This document shows, piece by piece, positions 12,379 through 20,734 of a stretch of 21,731 nucleotides of DNA; the first letter of the stretch is position 1; each line of letters opens with the position of its first letter. The stretch comes from a virus, in the IMG/VR virus record IMGVR_UViG_3300020439_000099, positions 1-21,731 of that record, one strand, 5' to 3'. Position numbers and translations under genes: made by a program. A model generated the notes under the pieces. It had not been told where the DNA came from and made no database searches. It saw only the letters and a program-made list of their open reading frames with translations.

Positions 12379-12518
12379 AGGCACCAGAACTACGGAAGAA
12401 ATGGTGCAAGTGTTGTGATGAATTAGGAACAATGGTAACGAACGAGGTGAAGACTAACCCTAGATATATGGGTATGAGAAATTATTGGAATGAACCTCCT
12501 CCTCCGACCCCTGAATGA
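12327..12518 (+). CDS. Small cysteine-containing hypothetical protein
   Basis: The product from ATG 12327 has 63 residues; a GTG at 12348 next to GGAGGG would give 56 (VVRLISKKDLKAPELRKKW). The core KKDLKAPELRKKWCKCCDELGTMVT contains three cysteines (CKCC) and is followed by NPRYMGMRNYW and a proline-rich PPPPTPE end. I do not recognise the family. It may bind metal, but four clear ligands are not present. The start is uncertain because the Shine-Dalgarno sequence touches the GTG. Confidence 0.58.
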   Translation: MCPNLEGVVRLISKKDLKAPELRKKWCKCCDELGTMVTNEVKTNPRYMGMRNYWNEPPPPTPE

Positions 12519-12696
12519 TGTTAATGATGTAACCTGGAGTATCATCATATCTCTCATAATTCTTTTGGCGGGGGTTGGTTATTACATATATACCATTATG
12601 AGTTTAGCATTTAGGGAACTGGAAGATGTCAATGACACCCCCAAGTCGGAAGAGTTGTTACAACTTCCGAGTGATCAAGATCAACAGGGTAGTTGA
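12490..12696 (+). CDS. Small single-span membrane protein (68 aa)
   Basis: From ATG 12490 the product starts MNLLLRPLNDVNDVTW and has one long hydrophobic span (SIIISLIILLAGVGYYIYTIM) followed by an acidic soluble tail (FRELEDVNDTPKSEELLQLP). It overlaps the previous gene by 29 bases and the nuclease gene downstream by 71. The membrane segment strongly suggests a genuine gene. The ribosome binding site is weak. Function unknown. Confidence 0.62.
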   Translation: MNLLLRPLNDVNDVTWSIIISLIILLAGVGYYIYTIMSLAFRELEDVNDTPKSEELLQLPSDQDQQGS

Positions 12697-13090
12697 TGGA
12701 GATACTATTGATGTCACTATTGATCTCGGATTCGATCTTTATAAGAAAGAACGAGTTAGAGTTGCTGGTGTGGACACACCAGAGAAGAGAACGAGGAATC
12801 TCGAAGAGAAGGCGTTAGGACTTGATGCTACCAATTGGTTGAAGGAGAAACTAGAGGGAGCTGTTAAGGGAGATGATGATCTCATCATTAGAACTGAACT
12901 GGTTGGTGGTGTGGGTAAGTACGGTCGCCTTCTTGGTTGGTTATATATTGGAGATGCAGAAGTTTCATTGAATGAAACAATGATCGACGAAGGATACGCC
13001 TGGGCGTATGATGGCGGCACTAAGAAAAAGGATTTTGAAGAGCTTCGAGAAATCCGTAGAAGCCGTGGTACTTTAATAGAACAAGTATGA
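12626..13090 (+). CDS. Staphylococcal-nuclease-like (SNase) nuclease
   Basis: The 154-residue protein carries the full SNc pattern: VDGDTIDV with D24 and D26, VRVAGVDTPEKR with R45, D50 and E53, and GKYGRLLGWLY with R101. These match the calcium ligands and catalytic arginines of Staphylococcus aureus nuclease. The fold ends MIDEGYAWAY. There is no signal peptide, so it should act inside the infected cell, on host DNA or RNA, as a Ca2+-dependent nuclease yielding 3'-phosphate ends. The start could instead be GTG 12671 (VIKIN), which would remove the overlap with the upstream gene and the odd MSMTPPSRKS leader. It ends in an ATGA overlap with the halogenase-like gene. Confidence 0.88.
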   Translation: MSMTPPSRKSCYNFRVIKINRVVDGDTIDVTIDLGFDLYKKERVRVAGVDTPEKRTRNLEEKALGLDATNWLKEKLEGAVKGDDDLIIRTELVGGVGKYGRLLGWLYIGDAEVSLNETMIDEGYAWAYDGGTKKKDFEELREIRRSRGTLIEQV

Positions 13091-14235
13091 AAATCGCAGT
13101 AGTAGGTGCGGGAACTGCAGGCTTATTGTCTGCAGTTACTTTGTGCCAATCTTTGCCTCCTTTCATTGAGGTTTATTTAATCCACAGCAATGATATTGCC
13201 CCTATTGGTGTCGGAGAATCTACTCTGTTAGATTTTCCAGAGATTTTATGTGAGGGTATTGATTACTATCATTTACTTGATAAGAAAGAAATGAATGCTA
13301 CCACCAAATTTGGTGTTAGATTTGTGGGTTGGCAAGATGACGATTTCTATATTACTTTTGGTAGTGGATGTCATGGACTTCACTTCGATAGTGCTGCACT
13401 ATCTCAGTTTGTAATTCCAAGATTGCAGAAGAAGTATGGTCGTTTCATGGAAGTCCGTGCTACTGTTAAAGAACTTAATGAGGTAGGGGATAAGGTATTC
13501 GTTGAATGCGACAACGATGTTTTTGAGTTTGATTATGTTGTTGATTGTAGAGGATTCCCTGAAGACTATAAAAATTATATTGAACCAAAGAATGTATATT
13601 TAAACTCGGCTATTACTGTAGCATCAGAGGGCATTGTTGATTGGCAATACACCGCACATATTGCTCATGAACATGGATGGATGTTTGCGGTTCCGTTAAA
13701 TGATAGAACTGGATTGGGATACTTATATAATGATAACTTCTGCGAGAGACATGATGCTCTCTATGAAATGGATAAGATTGCAAAGAGATTGAATCTTCAA
13801 GTTGACTTTGATGAAGCAAAAGAATTTAAGTTTAAGAACTACTATGCAAAGAAAGTAGTTTCATCAACATCAAGAATATTCTTGAATGGCAATAGAGCAT
13901 TGTTCTTTGAACCAATTCAAGCAACATCAATTGGTTGTTACAGTATGATTAACAAATTGATTGTGGATTATATAAATCATGATATTGAGATTGATAAGTT
14001 GCAGGAAGATTATGAGAAAATGATCAAAGAAGCCTTGATGTTTATTAACATACACTACTCTAAAGGGTCAGTGTATGATTCTCCTTTCTGGAAAATGTCA
14101 CAAGATGCAAGTAAAAAGTGCATTAATGAATATGATGTCTATAATTATAAGTGGGAGTATCTAATTGATTCACTTCCGCTTACGAATCAAATGCGGGATA
14201 GGTTTTTAAATGGACGAGAGAAGGCTTTGGTATAG
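13087..14235 (+). CDS. Flavin-dependent tryptophan halogenase-like protein
   Basis: The 382-residue protein matches the flavin-dependent tryptophan halogenase family. It has FAD-binding GAGTAGL at the N-terminus, GVGEST at 41-46, and a lysine (K74 in TTKFGVRFVGW) aligned by eye with the hypohalous-acid lysine of PrnA. The GWxWxIP motif is replaced by GWMFAVP at 197-203. The usual (D/E)PLE(A/S)T(S/G)I is EPIQATSI at 275-282, so the catalytic glutamate position holds Gln278. It is shorter than PrnA or RebH (over 500 residues), so the C-terminal substrate-binding part is reduced. Canonical enzymes chlorinate or brominate free tryptophan using FADH2 and O2; the altered residues make the substrate and even halogenation uncertain. 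The start overlaps the nuclease stop as ATGA. Confidence 0.82.
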   Translation: MKIAVVGAGTAGLLSAVTLCQSLPPFIEVYLIHSNDIAPIGVGESTLLDFPEILCEGIDYYHLLDKKEMNATTKFGVRFVGWQDDDFYITFGSGCHGLHFDSAALSQFVIPRLQKKYGRFMEVRATVKELNEVGDKVFVECDNDVFEFDYVVDCRGFPEDYKNYIEPKNVYLNSAITVASEGIVDWQYTAHIAHEHGWMFAVPLNDRTGLGYLYNDNFCERHDALYEMDKIAKRLNLQVDFDEAKEFKFKNYYAKKVVSSTSRIFLNGNRALFFEPIQATSIGCYSMINKLIVDYINHDIEIDKLQEDYEKMIKEALMFINIHYSKGSVYDSPFWKMSQDASKKCINEYDVYNYKWEYLIDSLPLTNQMRDRFLNGREKALV

Positions 14236-14239
14236 GAGA

Positions 14240-14314
14240 ATGAAAGTATTGATGAAGAAAATCAGTAAACTTCAATTAAAAGATTCTATAGATAAGAATT
14301 TGGATACTAAATAG
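14240..14314 (+). CDS. Possible 24-residue basic peptide
   Basis: A short ORF (MKVLMKKISKLQLKDSIDKN...) lies between the halogenase-like gene and the CTAAATA promoter. AGGAGA touches the ATG, which is too close to be an ideal ribosome binding site; ATG 14252 is better spaced. Its stop codon is overlapped by the late promoter. Support is thin. Confidence 0.25.
   Translation: MKVLMKKISKLQLKDSIDKNLDTK
14307..14313 (+). promoter_or_regulatory. T4-type late promoter motif CTAAATA
   Basis: CTAAATA preceded by ATA ends 22 bases before the ATG at 14336. Motif and spacing match 1688-1694. It marks the return from the auxiliary metabolic block to late genes. Confidence 0.6.
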
Positions 14315-14335
14315 GGTGCCCCCTGAACTGCTGTT

Positions 14336-14548
14336 ATGTTAGCCTTTCTATTACCATTAGCATCTAAAATTATTTCCGATGCTGTATCCAAGATCCCAGA
14401 GAATGAAGAACTGGGAGAGAAGTTAGTTGAAATTTGCCTACTTATCCTATCTAAAGCTGTTAAACTGACCAAGACCGATATGGATGATCAACTTCTAGAA
14501 GTTGTCACCAAAGCAATCGCTGCAAGGGAAGAAGCTCCTGCGGAGTGA
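14336..14548 (+). CDS. Small helical protein, possibly membrane-active (70 aa)
   Basis: The protein begins MLAFLLPLASKIISDAVSKIP, an amphipathic or weakly hydrophobic helix, then ELGEKLVEICLLILSKAVKL, a second hydrophobic helix, and ends in a charged tail. Proteins of this shape are conserved in cyanomyoviruses. The size and two hydrophobic helices would allow a holin role, but the second segment is also typical of a soluble helical hairpin, so I do not assign it. It has a CTAAATA late promoter 22 bases upstream and a canonical terminator just after its end. Confidence 0.7.
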   Translation: MLAFLLPLASKIISDAVSKIPENEELGEKLVEICLLILSKAVKLTKTDMDDQLLEVVTKAIAAREEAPAE

Positions 14549-14557
14549 TTACCTACC

Positions 14558-14565
14558 TATAAATA
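14558..14565 (+). promoter_or_regulatory. TATAAATA just before the terminator
   Basis: A perfect late-promoter octamer lies between the stop at 14548 and the hairpin at 14567-14586. A transcript starting from it would begin inside or just after the hairpin, so its use as a promoter for the 14636 gene is doubtful but possible. Confidence 0.35.
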
Positions 14566-14566
14566 G

Positions 14567-14593
14567 GAGACCCTTAACAGGGTCTCTTTTTTT
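14567..14593 (+). terminator. Rho-independent terminator
   Basis: GAGACCC (14567-14573) and GGGTCTC (14580-14586) form a seven-pair stem with loop TTAACA, followed by seven Ts (14587-14593). It is placed 18 bases after the stop codon of the 14336 gene. This is the clearest terminator in the window. Confidence 0.88.
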
Positions 14594-14600
14594 ATAAATA
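14593..14600 (+). promoter_or_regulatory. Late promoter TATAAATA
   Basis: A perfect TATAAATA (followed by AAT) starts on the last T of the terminator and ends 35 bases before the ATG at 14636. It matches the T4 late consensus exactly. Confidence 0.75.
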
Positions 14601-14635
14601 AATCTAGATCATAGTTAACATTGGAGTAAAAGCCC

Positions 14636-15127
14636 ATGTCTCTTTGGGGAAATAAAGATACAGTATACGCGACTGGTAACATCACAACGATCACCGCTCA
14701 GGGTGTAGTTACTGGCTCTGGCACAACTTTCTCCGCATCGGGGCTTGTTGCTGCGGGTCAGGTCATCACTATGGGTGCATACGGATCTGGAGTCATTAAG
14801 TCGGTTGACTCGGATACCCAACTCACTCTTGATAGTCCTGCTGGTCTAACTGCTGGTAGTGGTTTGACACAATCTTTCAACATTGGTGAGTCTCCTAAGT
14901 ATTTGGTTAAGGATGCAGCTTATGCTGGTAACCAAGTCTTTGGTGCTGATCCTACTGAGGTTGGTGTAGCACGTGGCGGTATCTACGAAGTTGCACACGC
15001 TGGATGGGTTGGTATCAAGACCTACACCGATGCACACGGAAACACAAGAACCAAGACTGAAGTCTTTGTTGCAGGTTCTTCTATCACTAGTGACGCTGCT
15101 GACGATTCTACCCTCGCAGATAGCTGA
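14636..15127 (+). CDS. Probable virion structural protein
   Basis: The protein has 163 residues and starts MSLWGNKDTVYATG, a start I associate with a conserved late protein of T4-like marine phages. It has a Gly/Thr/Ser/Val-rich beta composition (TITAQGVVTGSGTTFSASG, then GVIKSVDSDTQLTLDSPAG), a middle PKYLVKDAAYAGNQVFGAD block and a GWVGIKTYTDAHGNTRTKTEV segment near the end. The perfect late promoter and upstream terminator suggest strong, independent late expression, as expected for a virion component. No specific T4 counterpart is recognised. It has no membrane segment or cysteines. Confidence 0.75.
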   Translation: MSLWGNKDTVYATGNITTITAQGVVTGSGTTFSASGLVAAGQVITMGAYGSGVIKSVDSDTQLTLDSPAGLTAGSGLTQSFNIGESPKYLVKDAAYAGNQVFGADPTEVGVARGGIYEVAHAGWVGIKTYTDAHGNTRTKTEVFVAGSSITSDAADDSTLADS

Positions 15128-15154
15128 TATATATTAAGGTTGAATTAATGGTTC

Positions 15155-15526
15155 ATGAAGTTCACTGAGTTGAATGAAAATAATTATGTAATCTTTGCGA
15201 TTAGAAATTATGAAAATCCACACGCTGTAACTAAAGAAGATTTTGAAGAAGATCTTAAACGGTTTAAGTGGATTAAAAGATTGCTTAAACGATACAGAAC
15301 AACAGGTGTGTTGAAAGCGCACCTGTTGATTAATCATTTTATTATTTTGTATAATGTCTTTGGAGAAGCAGCTACTCCACTGTTGTTCTATAAAATTGAT
15401 AACGATCTGTGGCCTGTGGTAAAAACGTTTATCGTTTATCTGGGCAAATTCCCAGAATATCCAAAGTCACATCTACATGATATTCCTTTAGATGATACAT
15501 GTTTAGATTGTCTGAAACAATTATGA
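15155..15526 (+). CDS. Conserved phage protein of unknown function (123 aa)
   Basis: The protein begins MKFTELNENNYVIFAIRNYENPHAVTKEDF and continues through a charged FEEDLKRFKWIKRLLKRY helix and a hydrophobic LLINHFIILYNVFGEAATPLL region. It ends with the PLDDTCLDCLKQL cysteine pair (CxxC). I recall this family in T4-like and other marine phages without a known function. The helical, hydrophobic centre is too short and interrupted to call a membrane span with confidence. A 12-pair hairpin with two G-U pairs occurs at 15300-15328. The stop overlaps the next start as ATGA. Confidence 0.78.
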   Translation: MKFTELNENNYVIFAIRNYENPHAVTKEDFEEDLKRFKWIKRLLKRYRTTGVLKAHLLINHFIILYNVFGEAATPLLFYKIDNDLWPVVKTFIVYLGKFPEYPKSHLHDIPLDDTCLDCLKQL

Positions 15527-15699
15527 ATGAACATAGAGCACTCACAAACATGCGAAGAGTTGTGAGAGAAATGATGGCTGCTGGTACTGGTGGCTTCACA
15601 AATGCTGCAGATGAAAAAGGACCTGTAGCAGGATTTGACCCCGTAATGTCTAAACCTTTGAAGAGGAAACTCAAAAAAGTAAAAGATATCAAAAAGTAA
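15523..15699 (+). CDS. Small basic protein (58 aa)
   Basis: I chose ATG 15523 (MNEHRALTNMRRVVREMMAAG), which overlaps the upstream stop as ATGA. The product has a basic N-terminal helix, a glycine-rich GTGGFTNAADEKGPVAGFDPVMS segment and a lysine/arginine tail (KRKLKKVKDIKK). Similar GPVAGxDP-plus-basic-tail endings occur on other cyanophage proteins, so the motif may be a shared docking or binding element. It is separated from the next gene by a single base. Function unknown. Confidence 0.68.
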   Translation: MNEHRALTNMRRVVREMMAAGTGGFTNAADEKGPVAGFDPVMSKPLKRKLKKVKDIKK

Positions 15700-15700
15700 A

Positions 15701-16138
15701 ATGGCGTTCGGTTTAGGTAAACTTGCCGTCTTAGAATCAAAACTATCCATTTACGAAGACCTCTCTAAGGAGATGTTGGATAAACTGGAACGTGCCGTTG
15801 GCACTATCTCCGAGAACAGTAACAAGATTGCTGTTATCTTGGAACGTCATGAAAATAGATTAGACGAAAGCGAGAGAACTGATAACCTTATCATCAAGAT
15901 GATTGACGAGTTAAAAGAACAGGAAGAAAAGAACCATCAAATTCTTCATGAAAGAATTGATCGTATCCAAAAGAAAGTTGACTCTAATCAAAGATTTGTC
16001 ATTGGAGTGTCTGCTGTCATTGCAACGGTTGTGACAGTACTGCAAGTGATCCCTCCAATGGTTAAAGTATTGACACCTTCAACATCTACAAGTATGATAG
16101 GGAGCCAGGTATCCCTAGTTCATGATCTTCGTAGATGA
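15701..16138 (+). CDS. Coiled-coil protein with C-terminal membrane segment (145 aa)
   Basis: From residue 10 to about 100 the protein is highly charged and heptad-like (KLSIYEDLSKEMLDKLERAV, then ERHENRLDESERTDNLIIKM), predicting a long coiled coil. One hydrophobic span follows near residues 103-123 (FVIGVSAVIATVVTVLQVIPP), with a short polar tail. Coiled coil plus C-terminal anchor resembles XhlA-type lysis accessory proteins, and holin-related function is possible but unproven. It overlaps the primase gene by 17 bases. Confidence 0.72.
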   Translation: MAFGLGKLAVLESKLSIYEDLSKEMLDKLERAVGTISENSNKIAVILERHENRLDESERTDNLIIKMIDELKEQEEKNHQILHERIDRIQKKVDSNQRFVIGVSAVIATVVTVLQVIPPMVKVLTPSTSTSMIGSQVSLVHDLRR

Positions 16139-17117
16139 CAAATATATTGGGATGATTTCATCCCGACTTAATAAGTTTGCCAAAAAGAAGAACGGATTAT
16201 ATAACTTTAGATGCCCTTACTGTGGAGACTCACAGAAGCATAAGAACAAAGCTAGGGGATATCTTTATATTGTAAAGAATGATTATAACTTTAAGTGTCA
16301 CAACTGTGGTACTACGAGAACCCTTGCCAACTTCTTGAAGGATCAAGATTCGGTCATCCATGATCAGTACGTCATGGAGAGGTATAAACGTGGTGCCACG
16401 GGGAAAAGATCAAATACGGCTGCACCCAAATTTAAGTTTGAGAAGCCTGTTTTCAAGAAGAAACAAGAGCTAAATCTCAACAAAGTCGTAAACCTAAATA
16501 AAGAACATCCCGCTCGAACCTACTTAGAACAGAATAGACAACTTCCCAGTCAGGCACTGGAAGATATGTACTATGTCGAGAATTTCAAAGAGTGGACTAA
16601 TACCCAAAAACAGACGTTTGATAGTGTAACAAATGACGAACCACGCATTATCATACCTCTTAGGTATAATGGAAAGATAATTGGATATCAAGGGAGAGCT
16701 CTTCTTCCCAAATCGAAGATCAAGTACATAACGATCATGCTGGAGGAGGATGCTCCGAAGGTTTTTGGTCTTGACAAAATTAAAATTGAGGATCCCGTAT
16801 ATGTCGTCGAAGGACCCATCGACAGTTATTTCCTTGGAAATGCTATTGCTATGTGTGGGAGTGATGTTGACTTGCGCTCTCTTGATTATCAGTTCGTATT
16901 CGTCTACGACAACGAACCAAGAAACAAGGAGATTGTTGAGAAGATTACAAGAGCCACCGAGCACGGTTATAAGGTAGTTATTTTTCCAAAGGAGGTTGTT
17001 GAGAAAGATCTAAATGACATGTACTTATCTGGACTAGATGTCCAGAATCTGGTAGAATCTAATATCTACCAAGGTTTAGAAGCCAAACTAAAATTACAGA
17101 CCTGGAAACGAGTATGA
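16122..17117 (+). CDS. 61: DNA primase gp61
   Basis: The 331-residue protein has a zinc-binding N-terminus with CPYC at 31-34 and CHNC at 59-62, followed by a linker and a TOPRIM domain. TOPRIM motifs are visible: the catalytic glutamate E230 in VVEGPIDS, D263 in VYDNEP, and D296/D299 in KDLNDM. This is the T4 gp61 architecture. It synthesises short RNA primers for lagging-strand replication and binds the gp41 helicase, encoded at the start of this window. Domain order and length fit the family. The start overlaps the upstream coiled-coil gene, and the stop overlaps nrdA as ATGA. Confidence 0.92.
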   Translation: MIFVDDKYIGMISSRLNKFAKKKNGLYNFRCPYCGDSQKHKNKARGYLYIVKNDYNFKCHNCGTTRTLANFLKDQDSVIHDQYVMERYKRGATGKRSNTAAPKFKFEKPVFKKKQELNLNKVVNLNKEHPARTYLEQNRQLPSQALEDMYYVENFKEWTNTQKQTFDSVTNDEPRIIIPLRYNGKIIGYQGRALLPKSKIKYITIMLEEDAPKVFGLDKIKIEDPVYVVEGPIDSYFLGNAIAMCGSDVDLRSLDYQFVFVYDNEPRNKEIVEKITRATEHGYKVVIFPKEVVEKDLNDMYLSGLDVQNLVESNIYQGLEAKLKLQTWKRV

Positions 17118-19411
17118 GCAATGGTATTAAGGTGGTTAAGAGGAGTGGAGATATCGAGTCTCTTAACCTAGAGAAACTTCATAAGATGGTGGATGCTGCT
17201 TGTGAAGGACTTGCAGGAGTGTCTGCAAGTCAAGTAGAAATTAATTCTGGCATCCAGTTTTATGATGGTATCACTACAGCTGAGATCCAAGAGATTCTCA
17301 TTCGTAGTGCTAGTGACCTTATCGATCTTGACCATCCTAATTATCAGTTTGTAGCTGCTAGACTTCTTTTATTTGCACTGAGGAAGAGTTTGTATGGAGG
17401 AATGAGGGATCATCCTCCCCTTCACGAACAAATCCACACTGGTGTTGAAAAGAGAATTTATGATAAAGAAATTCTTGATAACTATACCGATGAAGAAATT
17501 GAAAAGGTAAATAGTTTTATCGACCATGAACGTGATTATCTTTTCACCTATGCTGGTCTTCGTCAGGTAATTGACAAGTATCTCGTACAGGATCGTAGCA
17601 CGGGTCAGGTGTATGAGACTCCTCAGTTCATGTATGCATTGATTGCCATGACGATCTTTGCTAAGTATCCGCAGGAAAACAGACTCGATTATGTCAAACG
17701 ATACTACAACGCAATCAGCAAACACAAAATCAACATTCCCACACCTATCATGGCAGGAGTGCGAACTCCACTTCGACAATTTGCTAGCTGTGTTCTTGTT
17801 GATGTTGATGACACCCTCGATAGCATCTTTAGCTCTGATATGGCTATTGGCAGATACGTTGCACAAAGGGCGGGAATCGGTATCAACGCAGGTAGAATCC
17901 GCGGCATCAACGCTAAGATCAGAGACGGAGAGGTTCAACACACAGGTGTGGTCCCCTTCCTCAAAAAGTTTGAATCAACTGTCCGATGCTGCACACAAAA
18001 CGGCATCAGAGGTGGGTCAGCGACTGTCCACTTTCCTATCTGGCACCAAGAGATCGAAGACATCATCGTCCTGAAAAACAATAAGGGAACCGAAGATAAT
18101 CGTGTTCGTAAACTAGATTATTCTATTCAAATTTCCAAGTTGTTCTATGAACGTTTTATCCAAGATGGAGAAATTTCTCTCTTCAGTCCTCACAACGTTC
18201 CTGGTCTTTACGATGCTTTTGGTACTGATAGATTTGATGACCTATATGTGGGTTACGAACAAGATCTCCGAGTTCCAAGAAAGACTGTCAAAGCACAAGA
18301 GTTGATTCTCGATATCCTTAAAGAACGTGCTGAGACTGGTCGTCTCTATATCATGAATATCGACCATTGCAATAGTCATTCGTCCTTTATTGATAAGGTG
18401 AACATGAGTAATCTCTGTCAGGAGATCACTCTTCCAACTGATCCCATTCAACACATTGATGATATCTCTGGAGAAATTGCTCTTTGCATTCTCTCCGCAA
18501 TCAACGTGGGTAAACTTCGTAATACTGATGAACTGGAAGAACTATGTGATCTTTCTGTTCGTGCTCTGGATGAGTTGATTGATTATCAACAATATCCAGT
18601 CAAGGCTGCAGAACTCGCCACAATGGGTCGTAGATCCCTCGGGATCGGTTATATCGGTCTTGCACATTATCTTGCCAAGAATGGGTGGAGATACGACTCA
18701 CAGGACGCCTGGGATGCGGTCCACAGACTCACAGAGAGTTTCCAATATTATCTACTGAAGGCATCTAATCAACTCTCTAAAGAGAAGGGTGCTTGTGTTG
18801 AATTCCCAAGAACAAAATATTATGAGGGACTACTCCCGATTGACACCTACAAACAAGATGTAGACGAAATCACTTCACAGGAGCTCCAACATGATTGGGA
18901 ATCTCTTAGAACATCTATCACTGAACACGGTCTCAGGCACTCAACACTGTCCGCACAGATGCCATCGGAGAGCAGTTCCGTTGTGTCAAACGAAACAAAT
19001 GGAATTGAACCACCTAGAGACTACTTGTCCATTAAGAAGTCAAAGAAAGGGCCTCTTAAACAAATTGTTCCACAATATGCTACTTTGAAAAATAATTATA
19101 CTTTGCTGTGGGACATGCAGAGTAACGAAGGTTATATCAAAGTTGTTGCAGTTATGCAAAAGTTCTTTGATCAGGCTATCTCTGGAAACTGGGCATACAA
19201 TCCAGAAAATTATCCAGACAATGAGGTCCCTGTTTCTGTTATGGCTAACGATTTCTTACAAACATACAAATATGGTTGGAAGACATCCTATTATCAGAAC
19301 ACTCATGACATGAAGAGTGATGAGATTGATACTAAAAAAGAATCCCTAGAACAATTACTAAACACAATTGCTGAAACGGAGGAAGAAGACTGTGACAGTT
19401 GCAAGATCTAA
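17114..19411 (+). CDS. nrdA: Ribonucleotide reductase class Ia, large subunit
   Basis: The 765-residue protein has an N-terminal ATP-cone (IKVVKRSGDIESLNLEKLH). Active-site residues match E. coli NrdA: redox cysteine C226 in ASCVLVD, N433, C435 and E437 in NLCQEI (thiyl radical site), the second redox cysteine C458 in ALCILSAIN, and radical-transfer tyrosines Y726 and Y727 in SYYQNTHD. A C-terminal CDSCKI supplies cysteines C760 and C763 that reduce the active site. It converts ribonucleoside diphosphates to deoxy forms and pairs with NrdB just downstream. No intron or inserted domain is visible. It is a standard T4-type enzyme and uses reducing power that Gnd and Zwf could increase. Confidence 0.97.
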   Translation: MSNGIKVVKRSGDIESLNLEKLHKMVDAACEGLAGVSASQVEINSGIQFYDGITTAEIQEILIRSASDLIDLDHPNYQFVAARLLLFALRKSLYGGMRDHPPLHEQIHTGVEKRIYDKEILDNYTDEEIEKVNSFIDHERDYLFTYAGLRQVIDKYLVQDRSTGQVYETPQFMYALIAMTIFAKYPQENRLDYVKRYYNAISKHKINIPTPIMAGVRTPLRQFASCVLVDVDDTLDSIFSSDMAIGRYVAQRAGIGINAGRIRGINAKIRDGEVQHTGVVPFLKKFESTVRCCTQNGIRGGSATVHFPIWHQEIEDIIVLKNNKGTEDNRVRKLDYSIQISKLFYERFIQDGEISLFSPHNVPGLYDAFGTDRFDDLYVGYEQDLRVPRKTVKAQELILDILKERAETGRLYIMNIDHCNSHSSFIDKVNMSNLCQEITLPTDPIQHIDDISGEIALCILSAINVGKLRNTDELEELCDLSVRALDELIDYQQYPVKAAELATMGRRSLGIGYIGLAHYLAKNGWRYDSQDAWDAVHRLTESFQYYLLKASNQLSKEKGACVEFPRTKYYEGLLPIDTYKQDVDEITSQELQHDWESLRTSITEHGLRHSTLSAQMPSESSSVVSNETNGIEPPRDYLSIKKSKKGPLKQIVPQYATLKNNYTLLWDMQSNEGYIKVVAVMQKFFDQAISGNWAYNPENYPDNEVPVSVMANDFLQTYKYGWKTSYYQNTHDMKSDEIDTKKESLEQLLNTIAETEEEDCDSCKI

Positions 19412-19424
19412 GAGACCAAGTGGA

Positions 19425-20555
19425 ATGACCGTATTCAATAAAAACAAAGTTAACTCTAAAAAACAACCAATGTTCTTTGGGGCTCCACTTGGAGTTCAGA
19501 GATATGATTCTTATAAGTATCCAGTATTTGAAAAGTTAAACCAACAAATGTTAGGATACTTCTGGAGACCTGAAGAGGTCTCTCTACAGAAGGATCGTGC
19601 AGACTATCAGTCTCTCAGACCAGAACAAAAGCATATCTTCAGTTCCAACCTGAGGTATCAGATTCTCCTTGACTCTGTTCAAGGTCGTGGACCTGGAATG
19701 GCTTTTGTTCCTTATTGTTCTCTTCCAGAATTGGAAGGAGCAATGACTTCGTGGGAATTTATGGAGATGATCCATTCCAGATCATATACATATATTATCA
19801 AAAATGTCTACTCCGATCCTTCGGAAGTTTTTGATACTATTCTAGATGATGAGAGGATTCTATCTCGCGCCCAAAGTGTTACCGAAGCCTATGATGATTT
19901 CATTCAGGCAGCCCAAGAGTATGGTTCTGGTAACATGTGGGAACATAATCTGGAAGAAGTACCTGCAGCTCAAGACACACTGTATGAACTCAAACGTAAA
20001 CTCTATCGGGCGGTTGCGAACGTCAACATCCTGGAAGGAATTAGATTCTATGTCTCCTTCGCGTGCTCGTTTGCATTTGGAGAGCTTAAGCTCATGGAGG
20101 GATCAGCTAAAATCATCTCTCTTATTGCCAGAGACGAAAACCAACACCTTGCGTTGACTCAGAATATCCTCAACAAATGGCACGCTGGTGATGATCCCGA
20201 CATGGTTGAAATTGCCAAAGAGGAAAAGGAGAACGTCGTTGGCATGTTTAAAAAATCTGTTGAGGAAGAAAAGGAGTGGGCTCAATACCTATTCAAAGAT
20301 GGATCTATGATCGGTCTCAATGATAAACTCCTCATGCAGTATGTTGAATGGATTGCAAACCGCAGAATGAAAGCACTTGGACTTAAACCAATCTTTGATA
20401 TTCCTGCCAAGAACAATCCACTTCCTTGGACTGAACACTGGATTTCCTCTAAGGGTCTTCAGGTTGCACCACAGGAAACAGAAGTAGAATCTTACATCGT
20501 TGGAGGTATCAAACAAGACATGAAGAAAAATGCTTTTGCTGGATTCCAATTATGA
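19425..20555 (+). CDS. nrdB: Ribonucleotide reductase class Ia, small subunit
   Basis: I chose ATG 19425 (MTVFNKNKVNS), which aligns with T4 NrdB (MSTVFNTN). From this start the iron ligands and radical tyrosine fall almost on E. coli numbering: D83, E114, H117, Y121, E204, E238 and H241 (MEMIHSRSY and ARDENQH). In-frame starts at 19392 (GTG with a good GGAGGAAG site) and 19368 would extend it into the nrdA end, and the GTG start is the only serious rival. The 376-residue length is normal. The di-iron centre generates the tyrosyl radical that is passed to NrdA. Confidence 0.95.
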   Translation: MTVFNKNKVNSKKQPMFFGAPLGVQRYDSYKYPVFEKLNQQMLGYFWRPEEVSLQKDRADYQSLRPEQKHIFSSNLRYQILLDSVQGRGPGMAFVPYCSLPELEGAMTSWEFMEMIHSRSYTYIIKNVYSDPSEVFDTILDDERILSRAQSVTEAYDDFIQAAQEYGSGNMWEHNLEEVPAAQDTLYELKRKLYRAVANVNILEGIRFYVSFACSFAFGELKLMEGSAKIISLIARDENQHLALTQNILNKWHAGDDPDMVEIAKEEKENVVGMFKKSVEEEKEWAQYLFKDGSMIGLNDKLLMQYVEWIANRRMKALGLKPIFDIPAKNNPLPWTEHWISSKGLQVAPQETEVESYIVGGIKQDMKKNAFAGFQL

Positions 20556-20701
20556 CAGAACTACCTGAGTGGAAGAAGAGGGCCCTGCAGGATCCAAATC
20601 TTCCACAAAGACAATTAGAAGTCTTAATGAAAGGACCCAAGTCTCTCACTGATGCTTGGTTCCTTCAGGCAATGAGATTCAAGTACGGCAGAGACAGCTG
20701 A
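20552..20701 (+). CDS. Small hypothetical protein (49 aa)
   Basis: ATG 20552 overlaps the nrdB stop as ATGA. The protein starts MTELPEWKKRALQDPN and has the pattern DAWFLQAMRFKYGR near the end. It is basic, helical and lacks cysteines and a membrane span. I do not recognise it. Tight coupling to nrdB suggests it is real, and its stop codon is overlapped by the next late promoter. A helper role for nucleotide metabolism is speculation. Confidence 0.66.
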   Translation: MTELPEWKKRALQDPNLPQRQLEVLMKGPKSLTDAWFLQAMRFKYGRDS

Positions 20702-20707
20702 TAAATA
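20700..20707 (+). promoter_or_regulatory. Late promoter GATAAATA
   Basis: GATAAATA begins inside the TGA stop codon (20699-20701) of the small gene and ends 27 bases before the ATG at 20735. It divides the nucleotide-metabolism block from a virion gene. Confidence 0.65.
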
Positions 20708-20734
20708 CTTAATATGTGTTAATCCCTGTCGATA

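Follow-up and report, generated by a model that had tools for sequence, protein, structure and literature searches.

The halogenase-like gene of a cyanomyovirus fragment

The window, that is, the whole stretch of 21,731 nucleotides analyzed here (IMG/VR record IMGVR_UViG_3300020439_000099), is a viral fragment from a T4-like marine cyanomyovirus. Genes for PTOX, gnd, zwf, an SNase-type nuclease, a primase, and nrdA/nrdB surround a gene encoding a flavin-dependent halogenase (FDH)-like protein (Table 1); FDHs are flavin enzymes that add chlorine, bromine, or iodine to other molecules. Among annotated phages, Synechococcus phage Sf-FS3 comes closest (85% identity over 73%). The ATG start of the halogenase-like open reading frame (ORF) overlaps the stop codon of the upstream nuclease gene (ATGA). 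In profile searches, its product matches PF04820 (E value 3.8e-37, 128.7 bits for a cut-off of 21) and PHROG 2928, 'tryptophan halogenase' (E value 4.3e-89). The original prediction for this locus had placed there this ORF, a catalytic lysine (K74), a glutamine (Q278) instead of the catalytic glutamate within EPIQATSI, and a GWMFAVP motif; all are exact in the translation, and a profile alignment to RebH confirms the two catalytic positions, pairing K74 with the catalytic lysine of RebH and Q278 with the glutamate of its EPLESTG motif.

Table 1. Features of the halogenase locus and of its product (positions in the window; residues of the 382-aa protein).
Feature	Position	Strand	Evidence or remark
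SNase-family nuclease (PF00565), overlaps halogenase start	12626..13090	+	Upstream partner in the clade of the window protein
Segment with nearly all of the nuclease plus the halogenase, absent from Sf-FS3	12651..14194	+	Comparison with Sf-FS3
Short-type flavin-dependent-halogenase-like protein, 382 aa	13087..14235	+	ORF; PF04820; AlphaFold2 pLDDT 94.2; Z 42.4 to SttH
FAD dinucleotide-binding motif GAGTAG (GxGxxG), residues 7-12	13105..13122	+	Motif in translation
E44 of GVGEST	13216..13218	+	Acid present in every sampled protein without Glu at 278
K74, equivalent of PrnA/RebH K79	13306..13308	+	RebH profile alignment; 74/75 short members
GWMFAVP (197-203), replaces GWxWxIP	13675..13695	+	F200 in 75/75 short members
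NGNR (267-270), where long enzymes carry GLS	13885..13896	+	Family alignment
EPIQATSI (275-282)	13909..13932	+	Translation and profile alignment to RebH
Q278, codon CAA, at position of PrnA E346	13918-13920	+	RebH profile alignment
HYSKGSVYDSPFW (323-335), matches short-family signature HYxxGSxYDTPFW	14053..14091	+	Family alignment

The nuclease precedes the halogenase in seven loci of the clade to which the window protein belongs (hereafter, the window clade). In Sf-FS3, the sequences that match window positions 12513-12650 and 14195-20709 are immediate neighbors; therefore, the nuclease and halogenase genes are gained or lost together. The ends of the gap fall inside the 5' end of the nuclease gene and inside the 3' end of the halogenase gene, as expected if the Sf-FS3 side underwent a deletion; the direction is unsure because the start of the nuclease gene overlaps another ORF too. 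We identified no flavin reductase or substrate gene near the window halogenase.

Two kinds of phage halogenases

The alignment comprised 95 phage relatives (later 101 sequences, including six cell-derived ones); relatives were sampled as the best 80 of at least 575 loci, and one of the two search patterns required [QE] at site 278. Two types of phage proteins are distinguished in it. The long type (P-SSM2, Syn1, HTVC008M, S-H38, and others) measures 464-485 aa, with 54-66 residues from the lysine strand to the HxxHFD segment, a GLS ahead of the EP motif, and GWxWxIP, the tryptophan at the GWxW site being present in all long members. The short type, of about 360-425 aa, has only 14-16 residues in this interval and carries the motifs GWxF, NGN[RA], and, at its end, HYxxGSxYDTPFW. 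The window protein shows the spacing, GWxF, NGN[RA], GSxYDTPFW, and length of the short type: it belongs, as a complete protein, to a short phage-borne subfamily of variant-A FDHs (PF04820) and is not a truncated tryptophan halogenase. Its shortness relative to known enzymes, stressed in the original prediction, is real (382 aa, with loops missing) but not peculiar to it, being the norm of the whole subfamily. Truncation or frameshift of the gene is ruled out by this family-typical length and by a confident full-length structural model (see below).

The cyanophage label 'tryptophan halogenase' covers two kinds of enzymes, the long canonical ones (VirX1 type) and the short ones. The latter are abundant, since a single profile scan gave at least 575 confirmed relatives in viral contigs, and they are common among marine viral contigs. 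We found in the literature no assay of any member of the short subfamily. A scan of cellular genomes gave six matches. One of them (NZ_RMVE01000006.1, 188,235 bases, labelled Nonlabens xiamenensis; L117) is 98.6% identical to the cyanophage P-TIM40 (188,632 bases) over 12.9 kb and most likely represents a cyanophage contaminating a bacterial assembly. Others lie on MAG contigs that may be viral, and the matches offer no useful host pathway; one MAG, from Polyangiaceae, contains a short-type protein with isoleucine at the glutamate site on a possibly viral 15-kb contig (L112/L131) and also encodes a canonical long halogenase.

Predicted structure and missing loops

The AlphaFold2 model of the window protein (68-sequence alignment, without FAD) has a mean pLDDT of 94.2 and a pTM of 0.92. 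Its top 50 Foldseek matches are all halogenases, and VIA-align gives Z scores of 42.4 with SttH, 38.8 with PrnA, 38.8 with BrvH, and 30.8 with VirX1, superposing 359-367 residues (about 366 with PrnA and SttH) at 2.6-2.9 Å. The protein is whole and is predicted to adopt the FDH fold over about 360-369 residues, the absent parts being loops. The chain extends just 42 residues beyond position 340; like BrvH, it would therefore probably have a short C-terminal lid, the element (440-467) that in RebH holds the amino acid part of the substrate. In the profile alignment, coverage of RebH stops near residue 89 and starts again near residue 164, so that RebH residues from about 90 to 163 have no counterpart. 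The short subfamily lacks the corresponding 60-70 residues, approximately, which in PrnA and RebH carry the indole-stacking residues; those of PrnA, H101 and F103 (PMC5659210), fall in the stretch missing from the window protein. Strictly defined tryptophan halogenases have these two residues and the glutamate of EPLE[ST]TG, and the window protein has neither; it also has GWMFAVP at the place of the GWxWxIP that characterizes PF04820 halogenases. In a check for QhpG/LodB-type flavin monooxygenases, no NCBIfam model, including those for monooxygenases, matched it.

A fixed lysine and a free glutamate site

Among the 75 non-redundant short proteins, 74 conserve the catalytic lysine, and the FAD motif is comparably stable (G7 and G9 in all 75, G12 in 73). 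Site 278, by contrast with this lysine, is occupied by E, Q, S, F, T, H, or I; the proportions of E, Q, S, and F are not population frequencies given the bias of the search pattern, which leaves the variety of residues unaffected. A maximum-likelihood tree of 83 rows, built after removal of the site-278 column, places the window protein in a supported (starred) nine-row clade with glutamine throughout. One sister clade has Ser, Phe, Thr, or Ile throughout, and five changes involving glutamine are required over the whole tree. The residue also occurs in the long-type proteins of Syn1 and Sf-CH3 and in Campylobacter phage CP21. The alignment thus answers a check that had been proposed, whether glutamine is a fixed phage feature: it is in the window clade but not across phage halogenases, and the idea that it sets the window enzyme apart is not supported, the site varying widely while the lysine stays. 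We consider this pattern of fixed lysine and free glutamate more interesting than the single glutamine of the window protein.

The window clade is under purifying selection (dN/dS of 0.13-0.26 for close pairs), which also holds the glutamine. A sequencing error at Q278 is ruled out by the agreement of all nine members of this supported clade, among which both CAA and CAG codons occur, and the low dN/dS shows that the gene is not dying either. The only sampled member with arginine for the catalytic lysine (GTLRYCT; L079 and L081, from IMG/VR) has glutamine in EPHQAIPL and shares its contig with a second short copy that has the lysine. As for a possible acid replacing the lost glutamate, E195 accompanies glutamine in two clades, a candidate that we rejected because the pairs that count as independent on the tree are too few (sign test p 0.5-1). 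Another acid, E44, is what we take to be the counterpart of the one mutated in PyrH E46Q, on a numbering derived from a +2 offset. Acids occupy both 44 and 278 in 38 proteins, only 44 in 30, only 278 in 15, and neither in 0. This complementarity is suggestive only, because on the tree position 44 lost its acid just once.

Genomic neighbors and phages with two halogenases

A 2OG-Fe(II) oxygenase gene lies at ≤1 kb from the short halogenase gene in 9 of 20 contigs versus 2.3 expected (none of 5000 placements reached this number), and a second halogenase is found nearby in 15 of 83 loci. In a number of loci (L044, L051, L062-L066, L068, L069, L072, and others), the short halogenase is often less than 2.5 kb from a long one and directly beside 2OG-Fe(II) oxygenases, and in some cases a carbamoyltransferase is present as well; such clusters are possibly oxidative tailoring islands in marine phages. 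Two short halogenases occur in tandem or close together in L126, L127, L125, and contigs G015/G022. Since the window clade proper has neither oxygenase nor second halogenase in its flanks (an oxygenase lies about 2 kb away in the basal L035 and L037 only), we set these neighbors aside for the window protein. In one S-PM2 record (AJ630128; L030, 1501 onward), the halogenase frame is broken after about 75 codons and no CDS is given, unlike in the S-PM2 record LN828717, which annotates a tryptophan halogenase.

A phage of the window clade, represented by a 231-kb IMG/VR contig (L002), has the short glutamine enzyme and a separate 495-aa enzyme with canonical lysine, glutamate, and GWxWxIP (ATFKSGI, EPLESTG, and GWIWKIP). 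S-SSM7, also of this clade, carries the same short and long pair (its prnA lengths are listed as 1104 and 1488 bp; PMC3037559), its long copy being 86% identical to that of the L002 contig. Since the long paralog keeps EPLESTG and GWIWKIP, the canonical job would be covered elsewhere in these two phages, where, at least, the short copy is by its sequence not the canonical halogenase. The short S-SSM7 protein, SSSM7_209 (GU071098; annotated 'tryptophan halogenase', T4-like GC 212), and the related S-SSM6a copy are among the closest known counterparts of the window protein. SSSM7_209 shares 48% identity with it over 98% of the protein and has glutamine at the 278 site, and its gene likewise lies upstream of primase/nrdA with an SNase gene upstream; it differs by its length (367 aa), and two small genes separate its nuclease gene from the halogenase. 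We found no activity data for SSSM7_209.

The one viral halogenase assayed, VirX1, belongs to the long kind and has the glutamate. It is the 530-aa product of CPUG_00131 of cyanophage Syn10 (full-length match to PDB 6qgm) and a biochemically characterized halogenase preferring iodide (PMC8407142). The statement that cyanophage halogenases have no demonstrated role consequently needs amendment as far as biochemistry is concerned, and it holds for the in vivo role, none being found for VirX1 in the literature. CPUG_00131 (L135, 5017-6609) was deposited as 'hypothetical protein' and forms a tandem pair with another gene for a long halogenase, CPUG_00132, whose end it overlaps.

Proposed function and alternatives

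The window protein may be a halogenase that relies on its lysine but not on the usual glutamate and whose open site takes an electron-rich, probably larger substrate other than tryptophan, an interpretation in which our confidence and our doubt are about balanced. We place it first because the lysine is nearly invariant, the tryptophan pocket is lost, and the glutamate site is free, taken together with published facts. The analysis shows the fold, the motifs, the conserved lysine, the missing indole-stacking loop, the recurrent change at the glutamate site, and purifying selection; we infer that the protein halogenates, on which kind of substrate, and by which chemical steps. FADH2 from a reductase encoded outside the locus would react with O2 to form a flavin hydroperoxide, and halide bound at the T280-S281 backbone would attack it to yield HOX; in the alignment, T280-S281 correspond to T351/S352 of BrvH, whose backbone amides bind halide (PMC5945002). 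K74 would capture or direct HOX, as a chloramine or through a hydrogen bond, and the electrophile would attack an electron-rich ring (phenol, pyrrole, or indole), perhaps one belonging to a peptide or another larger molecule, in an open site that solvent can reach. Q278 would serve only for positioning via a hydrogen bond, and the residue can be Ser, Phe, Thr, His, or Ile in sister lineages. Electron-rich substrates need little help from a base, so that Q278 could do without the role of the glutamate; phenol FDHs lack the catalytic glutamate (PMC8407142).

This reading is supported by the PF04820 match and FDH fold, the lysine in 74 of 75 members, the recurrent change at the glutamate site, purifying selection, the absence of the indole-stacking loop, the canonical long paralog of two phages, and the precedent of BrvH (PMC5945002), and VirX1 shows that a cyanophage FDH can be a true halogenase (PMC8407142). 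Against it, the E-to-Q change is harmful in PrnA and abolishes activity in MalA (PMC8407142), a flavin reductase or substrate gene was not identified nearby, the second tryptophan of GWxWxIP is phenylalanine in the window protein, and the conserved lysine might serve another purpose. This phenylalanine, uniform in the short type (75/75 GWxF instead of GWxW), is why we rank second a flavin monooxygenase or oxidase that has the FDH fold but does not halogenate, acting, for example, on a peptide- or protein-bound aromatic like QhpG in tryptophylquinone formation. The WxWxIP motif is considered a barrier to monooxygenation (PMC5945002), the glutamate would be dispensable, QhpG resembles FDHs yet hydroxylates a tryptophan in a protein (PMC7876137), and the oxygenases adjoining other short members above chance suggest oxidative tailoring. 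Nevertheless, the near-invariant halogenase lysine, the best fold matches, all of them halogenases, and the lack of any NCBIfam monooxygenase match make it somewhat unlikely. We give no weight to QhpG being absent among the fold-search matches listed.

We find it improbable that the protein is an ordinary or weak tryptophan or indole halogenase in which glutamine lowers the rate to a still sufficient level. PrnA K79A is dead and, as the original prediction stated, glutamine in place of glutamate cuts PrnA activity strongly, E346Q being about 100-fold slower and retaining about 1% (PMC5727139, PMC8407142); this residual activity and the conserved lysine and FAD motifs would suit such an enzyme. 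However, the indole-stacking region is missing, the glutamate site drifts to Ser or Phe in sister lineages, and S-SSM7 and the L002 contig already have a long FDH with all canonical residues. Since the lysine is kept and the glutamate repeatedly lost in the subfamily, the window protein probably does not act on tryptophan, and the earlier doubt about a normal tryptophan halogenase, based on Q278, is supported; the different substrate or other flavin reaction that had been envisaged are both conceivable, hydroxylation being one such reaction. Even less probable is a dead or decaying flavoprotein, retained for binding or being lost, as the change of one of two catalytic residues and the absence of the segment from Sf-FS3 might suggest: purifying selection, the confident intact fold, the near-invariant lysine and FAD motifs, and the many viral-contig relatives speak against it.

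A broader proposal, which we hold tentatively and consider unlikely, is that the short proteins are lysine-only flavin enzymes with which phages halogenate or oxidize not free tryptophan but a large substrate, which could be a peptide, a protein, or a glycan and belong to the virion or to the host. The former glutamate site would adapt to each substrate, and in the window clade the enzyme would work beside a canonical halogenase of the same phage. The short kind represents a natural experiment in which the lysine is retained and the glutamate, the residue that matters in tryptophan-halogenase mutants, is repeatedly changed. If short enzymes halogenate, the glutamate would have a role in substrate activation, not in the core chemistry, and the family would provide compact (about 370 aa), open-site biocatalysts. 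If they do not, many halogenation annotations of phage AMGs would be wrong.

Comparison with known enzymes

The window protein shares with VirX1 the PF04820 fold (Z 30.8), the lysine, and a phage origin, whereas VirX1 is longer (530 aa) and has an 80-residue insert, GWVWNIP, and EPLESTG with its glutamate. PrnA, RebH, and SttH resemble it in fold (Z 31-42), lysine, and GxGxxG but differ by the glutamate, GWxWxIP, the indole-stacking loop, and a longer C-terminal part. BrvH (6frl; Z 38.8) has a Thr-Ser halide site, to which T280-S281 would correspond, and the kind of open site that we propose for the window protein; it is lysine-dependent, refuses tryptophan, and brominates indole (PMC5945002), although it keeps the glutamate (E349) and WxWxIP in a 511-residue chain. 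QhpG (7ctq) also has an FAD-halogenase-like fold; unlike what we favor for the window protein, which no NCBIfam model matches, it is a monooxygenase of peptidyl tryptophan, dihydroxylating this residue inside a protein by use of a channel equivalent to the HOX tunnel (PMC7876137).
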